A DNA stretch of 6,235 bases from DASVDK01 sp036562265 [NCBI: Thermodesulfobacteriota bacterium]. GTDB lineage: Bacteria > DASVDK01. The notes beneath the pieces are model-generated. The model did not search any database and had not been told where the DNA came from. It saw only the letters and a list, made by a program, of their open reading frames with translations. This document shows positions 2,111 through 6,151 of this stretch, one piece after another. The translations under genes and the position numbers were made by a program. The first letter of the stretch is position 1, and each line of letters opens with the position of its first letter. The DNA lies in assembly GCA_036562265.1 (NCBI GenBank), contig DATCKS010000607.1:1-6235 (forward strand). The letters run 5' to 3'.

Positions 2111-2440
2111 ATGGCAGAAACGGTTCTCGGACGGCTGATTCGCCGGCGGGGGCTACCGTGGACGACGCTCGTCCGGTGGCTTCCCAAGGCGCCCCGCGTC
2201 CTGCGCCTCGTCTGGCGCCTGATCGCCGACCGGCGGGTCCCGGCCTGGCCGAAGGTGCTGGCCCTCGCGGTTGCCGCCTATCTCCTCGCGCCGGTGGACC
2301 TCGTCCCGGAGGCGATCTTCGGGCCGTTCGGCGTGGCCGACGACGTCGGGCTCGTCGTCCTCGCCCTGAAGACCCTCCTCTCGTCGACCCCGGCGTCGGT
2401 CCTCGCCGAGCACCTCGAGGCGGTCGGGCTCGACGTGTGA
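2111..2440 (+). CDS. DUF1232 (YkvA-like) small membrane protein
   Basis: This 109-residue protein has no assigned biochemical role. The DUF1232 signature is clear: [20 protein letters not shown] (about 40-59), then APVDLVPE (60-67) and GVADDVG (74-80), followed by a second hydrophobic stretch [10 protein letters not shown] (81-90). The first stretch and probably the second are membrane-associated. The N-terminus is basic ([20 protein letters not shown]). The family is recognised by the YLLxPxDLxP core followed by an Asp pair, but its function is not established. The ATG is 2 bases after the rluB stop and no good Shine-Dalgarno precedes it, so it is probably translated by coupling or as a leaderless message. 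Its TGA overlaps the GTG start of mutL. Nothing in the sequence links it to pseudouridylation or mismatch repair beyond shared transcription. Confidence 0.88.
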
Positions 2441-2958
2441 ACGGACCGGCCCCGCGCATCCGGCGGCTCCCCGAGGCGGTCGCGGCGAGGATCGCCGCCG
2501 GCGAGGTGGTGGAGCGTCCGGCCGCCGCGGTGAAGGAGCTGATCGAGAACGCCCTCGACGCCGGGGCGGGCCGCATCGACGTGACGATCGAGCAGGGGGG
2601 GCGGCGGCTCCTCGAAGTGGCCGACGACGGGTGCGGCATGACGCCCGACGAGGCGCGCCTCGCCCTCGAGCGACACGCCACGAGCAAGATCCGCACGGCC
2701 GACGACCTCCTCGCCATCGAGACCTACGGCTTCCGCGGCGAGGCGCTCGCCGCCATCGCCGCGGTGTCGCGCCTCACCCTCGTGACGCGCGTGCCGGAGG
2801 CGGTCGCGGGGGTCCGGATCGAGGTGGAGGGCGGGGTGATCAGGGCCGAGCGGCCGGCCGGCGCAACGCCGACCTCGCCGAGCGGCTCGACGCCCTCCTG
2901 GGTCCAGAGGCGCCGCCGCTCGTGGAGGTGCACGCGGAGGAGGGGGGGCTCGCCGTGA
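2437..2958 (+). pseudogene. mutL: MutL N-terminal GHKL ATPase fragment (frame 1, 173 codons, about 142 homologous)
   Basis: The start is the GTG at 2437, whose last two bases lie in the TGA of the DUF1232 gene. Translation then begins [22 protein letters not shown], in register with known MutL N-termini. GHKL ATPase motifs are visible. Motif I is [19 protein letters not shown], with E34 at the general-base position and N38 at the Mg-binding position. Motif II is DDGCGM (63-68). RHATSKI follows at 79-85 and GFRGEAL at 98-104. Homology ends at ERPAGA (138-143). The last ~30 codons are an out-of-frame Ser/Arg/Pro-rich readout ending at 2958. The fragment lacks the motif IV region (VGTT...) and the second subdomain of the ATPase, so it is not expected to hydrolyse ATP. 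Confidence 0.88.
2850..2870 (+). other. Deletion and frame-change junction in mutL
   Basis: On the left, frame 1 reads AERPAGA, the usual sequence just before the PVGTTVEVRDLF block. On the right, frame 3 reads [14 protein letters not shown], which matches the later MutL segment preceding the substrate-binding transducer domain. The join therefore lies at about 2857-2867, in a GC repeat (GGCCGGCCGGCGC). The repeat could have supplied microhomology for a deletion, or could have confused polymerase or assembler. The missing length cannot be read from the window. E. coli and B. subtilis MutL, from memory, imply 60-70 codons, and the frame change requires a non-multiple of three. Confidence 0.75.
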
Positions 2959-4013
2959 CCGGGCGCCTGTCGCCCCCCGGCGTCTCGCGGCCCGGCACCT
3001 CGAGCCTCTACCTCTTCGTGAACGGCCGGCCGGTGCGCGACCGGTCGATCCTGCACGCGACGCTCCAGGGGAGCCGCCACGCCCACGAGCCGGGACGCTA
3101 CCCGATGGGGGCGCTCTTCGTCGTGGTGCCGCCGCACATGGTGGACGTGAACGTCCACCCGCAGAAGGCCGAGGTCCGCTTCCGCGATCCGGCGGCGGTG
3201 CACGGCCTGGTGGCCCGCGCGGTCGAGTCGGCCCTCGTCGCCGCCGGCGCGCTGCCGGCGGCGGTCCGCGGCGAGCCGGTGGGGACCGTCCCGCCGCCGG
3301 GCGGGGGAGGCGAGCGGGTGCAGGCGGCGCTCGACGCGTTCCTCGCGCGCGCCGATCGGGCGGCCGAGCCGGCCGAGGTCTTCTCGTCGGCGCCGGTACG
3401 GGAGGCGCCGGCCCCCGCGCCCGGTTCGCGCTTCGCGGCGCTCCGCTACATCGGCCAGTTGCGGGCCTCCTACCTCCTCTGCGAGGGGAGGGAGGGGCTC
3501 GTCGTGATCGACCAGCACGCCGCGCACGAGCGGTTGCGGTTCGAGCGCCTCAGGCGGGCCCTTGCCGAGGGACGGACGCCGGCCGTCCGCCTGCTCGTGC
3601 CGCGGGCGGTCACGTTGCGGGCCGACCGGGCCGCGCTGGTCGTCGAGCGGGCCGGCGCCCTGGCCGACCTGGGGCTCGAGGTGGAGCCGTTCGGGCCGGT
3701 CGGCACGCTTCGGGTGACCGCCGTCCCGATGGGGCTCGAAACGCTCGACCCAGGCCCGCTCCTCGAGTCGGTTGCCGAGGACCTCGAGGGGCTCTCCCCC
3801 GCGCGCTCGATCGAGGAGGCACGCGACCACCTGCTCGCGACGGTGGCCTGCCACGGCGCGGTCACCTTCCGCCAGGCGCTCGATCCGCTCGAGGCGACCG
3901 CGCTCCTCGCGGACCTCGATCGCTACGAGGTCACCGGCGCCTGCCCGCACGGCCGGCCGGTCAGCCGGCTGATCGGCTTCGCGGAGCTCGAGCGGCTGTT
4001 CGACCGCCGGTAG
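2865..4013 (+). pseudogene. mutL: MutL transducer and C-terminal endonuclease/dimerisation fragment (frame 3)
   Basis: From about 2865 the frame encodes the end of the ATPase region and the transducer domain. This part includes YLFVNGRPVRDR near 3010-3045 and PHMVDVNVHPQKAEVRFRDP near 3134-3190. A Pro/Ala/Glu-rich linker follows (about 3240-3430), then the C-terminal domain. That domain has the metal-dependent endonuclease motif DQHAAHERLRFE (3510-3545, fitting DQHAx2Ex4E), then ACHGAV, CPHGRP (3942-3959) and a terminal FDRR. This is the nicking type of MutL found in bacteria lacking MutH. At the usual beta-clamp contact (QxxxVP in B. subtilis) the sequence is VRLLVP, without Gln. No convincing start codon with a ribosome binding site exists at the beginning of this part, so separate translation is doubtful. 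miaA starts 2 bases after its stop. Confidence 0.88.
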
Positions 4014-4015
4014 GC

Positions 4016-4957
4016 ATGGCATCGGACGAGCGGCCGCGCATCCTCGCCATCGTCGGGCCGACGGCGTCGGGCAAGACCGCCCTGGCCATCGAGCTGGCCG
4101 AGCGTTTCGGGCTCCCGATCCTCGGCGCCGACTCGCTGCAGGTCTACCGCTACCTCGACATCGGCAGCGCGAAGCCGACCCCCGAGGACCGCCGCCGCGC
4201 CGCGCACTACCTGATCGACCTGGTCGACCCGGACGAGCCCTTCACGGCCGCCGACTACGCTGCGCACGGCCGCCGCGTGGTCGAGACGCTCGGGATCGGC
4301 CGGCCCGGCGGCCCGCCCGGCGCGCTCCTCGTGGGGGGCACCGGCCTCTACGTCCGCGCCCTCACGCGCGGCCTCATCCCGGTGCCGGCCGTCGGGGCGG
4401 GGGTCCGGGCGCGCATCGAGGCCGAGGTCGCCGCCGACCCGGCCGCCGCCCGGGCCCGCCTCGCCGCGGCCGATCCCGAGACGGCGCGGCGGCTCCCGCC
4501 GGCCGACCGGGTGCGCCTCGTCCGGGCCCTCGAGATCCTCGAGGCGACCGGCGAGCCCCCCTCGGCGCTGCGGGCCGCGCATCGCTTCGGCGACCGGGTC
4601 TTCGACGTCGCCATCGCCGTGCTCGACGTCCCCGTGGCCGACCTCGACCGGGCGATCGGGGCGCGCGTGGACCGGATGCTGGCGGCCGGGCTGGTCGAGG
4701 AGGTACGTGCCCTCCACGCCCGCGGCTACGGGCCCTGGCTCAAGCCGATGCGGGCCCTCGGGTACCGGCAGATCGGGGACTACCTGGCCGGGCGGTTGAC
4801 GCTTGCCGAGGCGGCGGCGAGCATCAAGATCGAGACCCGACGGTACGCCAAGCGGCAGCGGACCTGGTGGCGCGGCGAGCGGGAGGCCCAGTGGGTGGAC
4901 GTGTCAGAAGCCCGCGTCAGACTCGCGGAATTGGCGCGGCGCCACTTGCATCTCTGA
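4016..4957 (+). CDS. miaA: tRNA dimethylallyltransferase
   Basis: MiaA transfers a dimethylallyl group from DMAPP to N6 of A37 in tRNAs reading UNN codons. This is the first step towards ms2i6A and it stabilises codon-anticodon pairing. The 313-residue length is typical. Motifs in order: P-loop GPTASGKT (14-21), the catalytic-aspartate block ADSLQVYRYLDIGSAKPT (38-55, D39 matching E. coli D35), DPDEPFTAADY (71-81), GGTGLYVRALTRGL (107-120), and a late basic block KIETRRYAKRQRTWWR that binds tRNA. The ATG lies 2 bases after the mutL stop with no strong Shine-Dalgarno, suggesting coupling to mutL translation. mutL-miaA-hfq is a well-known order. The reading frame is uninterrupted and I see nothing anomalous. 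Confidence 0.97.
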   Translation: MASDERPRILAIVGPTASGKTALAIELAERFGLPILGADSLQVYRYLDIGSAKPTPEDRRRAAHYLIDLVDPDEPFTAADYAAHGRRVVETLGIGRPGGPPGALLVGGTGLYVRALTRGLIPVPAVGAGVRARIEAEVAADPAAARARLAAADPETARRLPPADRVRLVRALEILEATGEPPSALRAAHRFGDRVFDVAIAVLDVPVADLDRAIGARVDRMLAAGLVEEVRALHARGYGPWLKPMRALGYRQIGDYLAGRLTLAEAAASIKIETRRYAKRQRTWWRGEREAQWVDVSEARVRLAELARRHLHL

Positions 4958-5062: not shown

Positions 5063-5425
5063 ATGAACAAAGCGCCGATCAACGTTCAGGATCAGTTCCT
5101 CAACCAGGTGCGTCGCGAGAAGATCGCCGTGACCGTGGACCTCGCATCGGGCAAGAGCGTCAAGGGCACCATCCGAAGCTTCGACAACTTCTGCGTCATC
5201 GTCGAGGGCCAGGGCCAGCAGCTCATCTACAAGCACGCCATCTCGAGCATCTACCCGACCGAGCGGACCGTGCGGCTCGGCGCCTTCAACGAGGGACACG
5301 GCGGTCACGGGGTGGACCGCCGGCCGATGGAGCGCCGCGTCGCGTACGGCGGCCACGGCAGCGACGCCTCCGCGCACGGGTCCGGCGAGTCGGCCGAGGG
5401 CAACGGGCCGGCCCGCAAGGCGTAG
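5063..5425 (+). CDS. hfq: RNA chaperone Hfq with a Gly/His-rich C-terminal tail
   Basis: Hfq is a hexameric Sm-like ring that binds small RNAs and mRNAs and promotes their pairing, stability or decay. The core is clear in residues 5-72: INVQDQFLNQVRREK, then SFDNF (39-43) and the Sm2 signature YKHAIS (56-61). Proximal-face residues Q9, D10, F43, Y56, K57 and H58 and the rim basic patch R17-R18-E19-K20 are all kept. On the distal face, the position of E. coli Tyr25 (Phe in B. subtilis) is Asp26 and that of Lys31 is Ser32. The core resembles the B. subtilis form (DQFLNQ, QQLIYKHAIS). Residues ~73-120 form a flexible tail with GHGGHG (78-83), a second GGHG (96-99) and a basic end. At 120 residues it exceeds both E. 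coli (102) and B. subtilis (73). Position after miaA is the classical one. Confidence 0.96.
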   Translation: MNKAPINVQDQFLNQVRREKIAVTVDLASGKSVKGTIRSFDNFCVIVEGQGQQLIYKHAISSIYPTERTVRLGAFNEGHGGHGVDRRPMERRVAYGGHGSDASAHGSGESAEGNGPARKA

Positions 5426-5452: not shown

Positions 5453-6151
5453 ATGCGGCTCTTCCCGATCGCGGCGCTGATCGCGGTGCCGGCCCTCGTG
5501 GTCGGGCTGGCGGGGCCGGTCCCATCGTCGGCAGAGCCCCAGGGCAACACGCTCCTGCCGGTGCAGGTCGAGGGGCTCGCGCCCATCGAGAACGACAACA
5601 TCACCGCCGCCAGGGAGCAGGCGGTGGCCGACGCGCTCCAGCGTGCGGTCGAGCGGGCGGCGGCGACCCTCGTCCCCCCCGAGACGCTCGCCCAGCAGGA
5701 CGCGCTGCTCCGCGAGCAGCTGTACTCCGACCCGGTCCGCTTCGTTCAGACGTACCGGATCATCGCCGAGCTGCCGGCCGGGACGCTCTACCAGGCGTCG
5801 ATCGAGGCGGTCGTCGACCGCGAACCGCTCAGGCGGGCGCTGGTCGACCTCGGGCTCCTCACGGCCGGTGCGCCGGCCGGACCGCTCGGCATCGTGAGCG
5901 TGACGGCGCGCGGCGCGACCCGCAAGGCACAGCTCGACGCGCTCACCGCGGCGCTCGGCGACCAGGGACAGGCGCAGCGGGTTCGCTACCGGTCGGCCGC
6001 GCCAGGCGCCGTCGTCCTCGAGGTCGAGACGCCGCTGCCGCCGGCGGCTCTCGCGCAGGAGCTGGCCCGGCTGCAGGTAGAGGGCGCGCAGGTAACGGTG
6101 GCGTCTCCCGACGGGCGTCGGCTGGAGGTCCTGTTCACGCCGGTCCGCTGA
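5453..6151 (+). CDS. Exported protein, possibly FlgT N-terminal-like (or DUF2066-like); function unknown
   Basis: I do not recognise a characterised protein here. The 232-residue product starts with a signal peptide: MRLF, a hydrophobic core to about residue 20, then PVPSSA before E28 (likely signal peptidase I site SSA-EP). No lipobox cysteine is present, so a periplasmic location is likely. Residues about 36-135 read VQVEGLAPI, then ITAAREQAVADALQRAVERAA, then DPVRFVQTYRIIAEL, YQASIEAVVD and LRRALVDLGLL. This pattern recalls the N-terminal domain of flagellar assembly protein FlgT and its non-flagellar relatives. DUF2066 is the alternative. The rest (about 145-232) looks like a second alpha/beta domain (GIVSVTARGA, then VLEVETPLPPAALAQELARL) ending in RRLEVLFTPVR. 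No clear ribosome binding site is seen. The last base of its stop is the first of the next gene's ATG, suggesting coupling. No flagellar gene is nearby. Confidence 0.75.
   Translation: MRLFPIAALIAVPALVVGLAGPVPSSAEPQGNTLLPVQVEGLAPIENDNITAAREQAVADALQRAVERAAATLVPPETLAQQDALLREQLYSDPVRFVQTYRIIAELPAGTLYQASIEAVVDREPLRRALVDLGLLTAGAPAGPLGIVSVTARGATRKAQLDALTAALGDQGQAQRVRYRSAAPGAVVLEVETPLPPAALAQELARLQVEGAQVTVASPDGRRLEVLFTPVR

Follow-up and report, generated by a model that had tools for sequence, protein, structure and literature searches.

A mutL gene of a very GC-rich bacterial contig reads as a null allele through the loss of about 187 bases

MutL in bacteria and the locus under study

The described systems with which this locus can be compared are the bacterial MutL that bears its own endonuclease motif (TIGR00585) and the switchable mutL of Salmonella. 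The endonuclease motif is defined as D(Q/M)HA(X)2E(X)4E in PMC8744996, where it also appears that the beta-clamp motif QXX(L/I)XP may not be universal. In E. coli, MutL deficient in ATP binding raises mutagenesis (PMC12733681). In Salmonella, mutL alleles switched off through repeats have been described, in which the bases go through short repeats, in a switch based on a 6-bp repeat (PMC2955026). The gene analysed here shares with bacterial MutL the ATPase motifs, the C-terminal domain and the D(Q/M)HA(X)2E(X)4E motif, and it adjoins miaA, as in many of the bacterial loci that were fetched. Contrary to these, it is without about 62 residues, including GTxVxVxDLFxNxPARxKFL, and its halves lie in different frames. 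It resembles the Salmonella switch in having a broken allele that arises from base loss, but it differs from the alleles of PMC2955026 in that about 187 nt are gone together with a change of frame, and neither reversal nor a repeat on each side of the break is in evidence.

The window, that is, the whole stretch of DNA that was analysed (6235 bases), has a GC content of 75% and carries tightly packed genes, all on the + strand (Table 1). With the exception of mutL, every gene is one uninterrupted open frame in the ORF list. mutL starts with a GTG (2437) that overlaps the stop codon of the DUF1232 gene before it. At the other end of the window, the protein encoded at 5453-6151 gave a match to FlgT_N of 27.1 bits, slightly below the Pfam cut-off of 28.8. 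The order in the window is scpA-scpB-rluB followed by mutL-miaA-hfq. In six loci of one class (L087, L089, L090, L095, L096 and L097), scpB comes after miaA-hfq, and rluB is also there, except in L097; in that class, mutL is on a separate contig from miaA-hfq-scpB in at least three genomes (G119, G148 and G015).

Table 1. Positions of mutL parts, junction elements and neighbouring genes in the window
Feature	Position	Strand	Description
scpA 3′ end		+	open at window start (ORF list, profile matches)
scpB, RluB-type pseudouridine synthase, DUF1232 gene, mutL (two frames), miaA, hfq		+	further genes, in this order
mutL 5′ part, frame 1	2437..2864	+	MutL residues 1-142, GHKL ATPase motifs
Open frame left to 5′ part	2437..2958	+	173 codons and stop (ORF list)
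Deletion junction	2852..2872	+	GGCCGGCC tract, then frame change at 2864/2865
mutL 3′ part, frame 3	2865..4013	+	remainder of second N-terminal subdomain, linker, C-terminal dimerisation/endonuclease domain
Endonuclease motif D(Q/M)HA(X)2E(X)4E	3510..3545	+	reads DQHAAHERLRFE (pattern search)
Clamp-binding motif position	3585-3602	+	reads VRLLVP, V replacing conserved Q
Hfq	5063-5425	+	Sm core, then long glycine- and histidine-rich tail
Gene adjoining hfq	5453-6151	+	signal-peptide-like start (by eye)
GGCCGGCC copies	46-53, 418-425, 2852-2859, 3024-3031, 3951-3958, 4298-4305, 5406-5413		

Two reading frames and a missing block

A first-pass annotation of this DNA had placed mutL in two frames out of register with each other, and both the profile matches and a switch in the phase of third-position GC confirm it. 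The frame 1 part, from 2437 to about 2864, corresponds to positions 1-135 of TIGR00585 (E 4.3e-64, profile search) and also matches HATPase_c_3. The frame 3 part matches TIGR00585 positions 197-331 and PF01119, the latter beginning at profile position 13, and its C-terminal domain matches PF08676 (Pfam MutL_C, E 2.5e-32). In a frame plot, GC at third codon positions follows frame 1 to about 2860 and frame 3 beyond, the exact breakpoint being uncertain by a few bases. One continuous MutL reading frame is not present, as the frame changes from 1 to 3 at 2864/2865, and the final 31 or so of the 173 frame 1 codons are out of register. As written, mutL is a null allele: frame 1 would yield an ATPase stump of 173 residues, which, with the C-terminal part separate or absent, should provide no mismatch repair.

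The missing block shows as the jump of the profile match from position 135 to position 197. Its size was determined with 117 intact MutL proteins, taken as open frames of at least 430-450 codons from the fetched loci, a few of them twice from one genome. Net loss was taken from BLAST end points, as the distance in each relative from the counterpart of the last N-part residue to that of the first C-part residue; 10 of the 117 relatives were left out because their matches ended too far from the junction. Comparison with the MutL of relatives, which the first-pass annotation had proposed as the way to measure the gap, gave 187 nt as the most frequent net loss (66 of the 107 relatives measured; median 187, range 148-229), with 190 nt in nine and 184 nt in seven. 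Ten of the 11 near relatives were listed, with 187 nt in eight, 190 in one and 181 in one. By alignment, the gap is 62 residues in 79 of 86 relatives (counted by hand from a list) and in 104 of 107 in a second, larger alignment. A third alignment (MAFFT, 117 relatives) shifted the last residues of the N part to the far side of the gap, and its counts (0 for all 117) are void. Because 187 leaves a remainder of 1 on division by three, a loss of this size gives the frame change observed. The proposal of a deletion that also shifts the frame is therefore supported, at about 187 nt relative to intact MutL proteins.

The block carries GTxVxVxDLFxNxPARxKFL, which we take to be ATPase motif IV, and has the consensus p.GT...V..LF.ntPARlKFLk...tE...i...v.r.Ala.P.v.F.l..d. 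TIGR00585 positions 136-196 are unmatched in the window, and a tblastn search of the window did not find the block elsewhere in it (best E 0.026). At least 50 residues occupy the interval in all 107 intact MutL proteins. The coordinates of the first-pass annotation and its estimate of 60-70 absent residues, including the DLFxNxPAR block, were correct.

Condition of the remaining gene and its relatives

What is left of mutL is well preserved. Columns conserved at 95% or above in 86 relatives are kept in 32 of 32 cases in the N part and in 34 of 35 in the C part; with the same criterion and 107 relatives, the figures are 33/33 and 30/30. The 5′ part has the GHKL ATPase motifs, presumably those numbered I-III, and the 3′ part has the C-terminal dimerisation/endonuclease domain with its motif (PF08676 and pattern). 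Third-position GC is 0.97 in the 5′ part and 0.96 in the 3′ part, at the upper end of the 0.91-0.96 of the neighbour genes. The beta-clamp motif QXX(L/I)XP is absent, and the sole conserved column missed is the V for Q within it. Q stands at this position in 110 of the 117 intact relatives and E, K, N or H in the other seven, six of which (E, K or N) come from one class where a seventh sampled relative, L106, has Q. The substitution was considered as a sign of decay and dropped, because these seven intact relatives also differ and the motif is perhaps not universal. Further, of the 108 root-to-tip paths in the MutL tree, that of the window is the shortest; the terminal branch of its MutL is 0.82 versus a median of 0.42, the 20th longest of 108, and could hide mild relaxation. 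On balance, mutL bears no sign of a long-dead gene, which suggests that the loss is either recent or technical.

No close relative was found in whole genomes of several phyla and classes, where the best match to the C half was 50% identical (L125) and matches to the N half reached 68% (L123). Among the matches listed in a scan of genome contigs, the best by E-value was 38% and the highest 40% identical. Two scans of IMG/VR gave four relatives at 25-30% in one and none in the other, and plasmid records gave none covering 80%. Judged from these identities, none of the relatives found is close enough for the junction to be read from it. The window stands beside L026, an unclassified MAG, both in the MutL tree (support 0.69, together with L076) and in the MiaA tree (support 0.90), which places its lineage only loosely. 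Of 198 genomes surveyed in one phylum, 178 matched TIGR00585 at E 1e-10. Among the matches listed, strongest first, all 150 rows counted by eye are one open frame with no stops, spanning the profile from position 22 or lower to position 320 or higher. The other 20 genomes gave no match at that threshold, and their assemblies may be incomplete. The intact relatives measured above were picked as long open frames and are therefore a weak test of how frequent broken mutL is.

How the bases may have been lost

The junction sits within GGCCGGCCGGCGC, the core of which is the palindrome GGCCGGCC. The window has seven copies of this word where 1.41 would be expected, and none of 200 dinucleotide shuffles reached seven. 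Its over-representation and its place at the junction plausibly fit a false join as well as slippage, and prove neither. Two words of the GGCCGGCC type about 187 bp apart, the second of them hypothetical, could have given rise to slippage or to a false overlap during assembly. Some short-read assemblers bridge coverage gaps through overlaps down to about ten bases. A 5-bp hairpin at 2859-2871 spans the junction; it was rejected as a cause, since the window has 48 such hairpins, which makes this one unremarkable, and the fold z-scores are 0.78 and -0.26.

What has to be explained is a deletion of known size, with a change of frame, in an otherwise intact gene. We lean towards a loss in sequencing or assembly rather than a real and recent null allele, because the gene that is broken is conserved and undecayed and the contig is small and very rich in GC; that about 187 bases of mutL were lost there and not in the cell is somewhat probable. 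A stretch within a single mutL would have been very GC-rich and poorly covered, two ends of the same mutL would have been joined on a short GC-rich likeness of the GGCCGGCC type or through a chimeric read, and about 187 bases (some 62 codons) would have dropped out at 2864/2865, producing the frame change and the null allele as written. The remaining gene looks to be under full selection, as judged by conserved columns, third-position GC and tree path; the missing interval is present in every relative measured and the reading is open in the 150 rows among the matches listed; and the junction lies in a tract of a word that is over-represented in the window. The GC content, too, would fit a small, unbinned metagenome contig. 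Against this, the contig is otherwise clean, its other genes being open and in frame with no break in composition at the junction, and the long terminal branch may mask mild relaxation. Moreover, the loss of 187 bases inside a contig is an uncommon assembler fault, and a recent true deletion would look identical.

Such a deletion, in which the sequenced population would have lost about 187 bp through replication slippage or through recombination of short GC-rich repeats and mutL would be null, is a serious contender, although its probability falls a little short of even. The flanking genes are intact, composition is unbroken and the seven GGCCGGCC copies in 6235 bases amount to roughly one per kb. 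In Salmonella, mutL is described as alternating between a working and a broken form with changes in repeat number (PMC2955026), which is in keeping with it, and the absence of MutL may be tolerated, as 20 of 198 genomes are without a TIGR00585 match. However, with no decay around the break, the deletion would need to have happened very lately and still predominate in the assembly, and no broken MutL was seen in the 150 rows among the matches listed, strongest first.

It is very unlikely that the rearrangement is fixed and still works, either as two cooperating polypeptides or through a -1 frameshift that yields one shortened MutL, and no better chance can be given to a lineage with a fixed split MutL without DLFxNxPARxKFL that functions as two cooperating polypeptides. 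Catalytic motifs are intact in both halves, and frame 3 already reads open ahead of the junction, from 2631, and offers a GTG that may act as start. This opening means little, because most of the other genes in the window, with its 75% GC, have open off-frames too. Furthermore, both products would be without a block present in 107 of 107 measured relatives, and no classic slippery heptamer was seen by eye at the junction. Least probable of all is a chimeric contig in which mutL pieces of two organisms are joined: a false join between relatives could produce the jump in register, but the idea was rejected for want of a composition break across the junction, GC being 0.7455 to its left versus 0.751 to its right, the codon-usage distance being equalled in 166 of 1000 random deals and the tetranucleotide distance (0.238) lying inside the 0.236-0.309 of seven other split points.

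In conclusion, neither a technical loss nor a recent null allele is novel; repeat-switched mutL alleles are already described (PMC2955026), which makes a null mutL here one of a known kind. Only a split MutL that is fixed and working would be a surprise. If the deletion is real, it would be one more natural loss-of-function allele of mutL, in a lineage for which the collections searched gave no close relative, and the strain, if it has no second mutL, would lack the mismatch repair that depends on MutL and be a mutator. If the loss is technical, as we lean to think, the locus calls for caution over genes called in metagenome contigs of very high GC.
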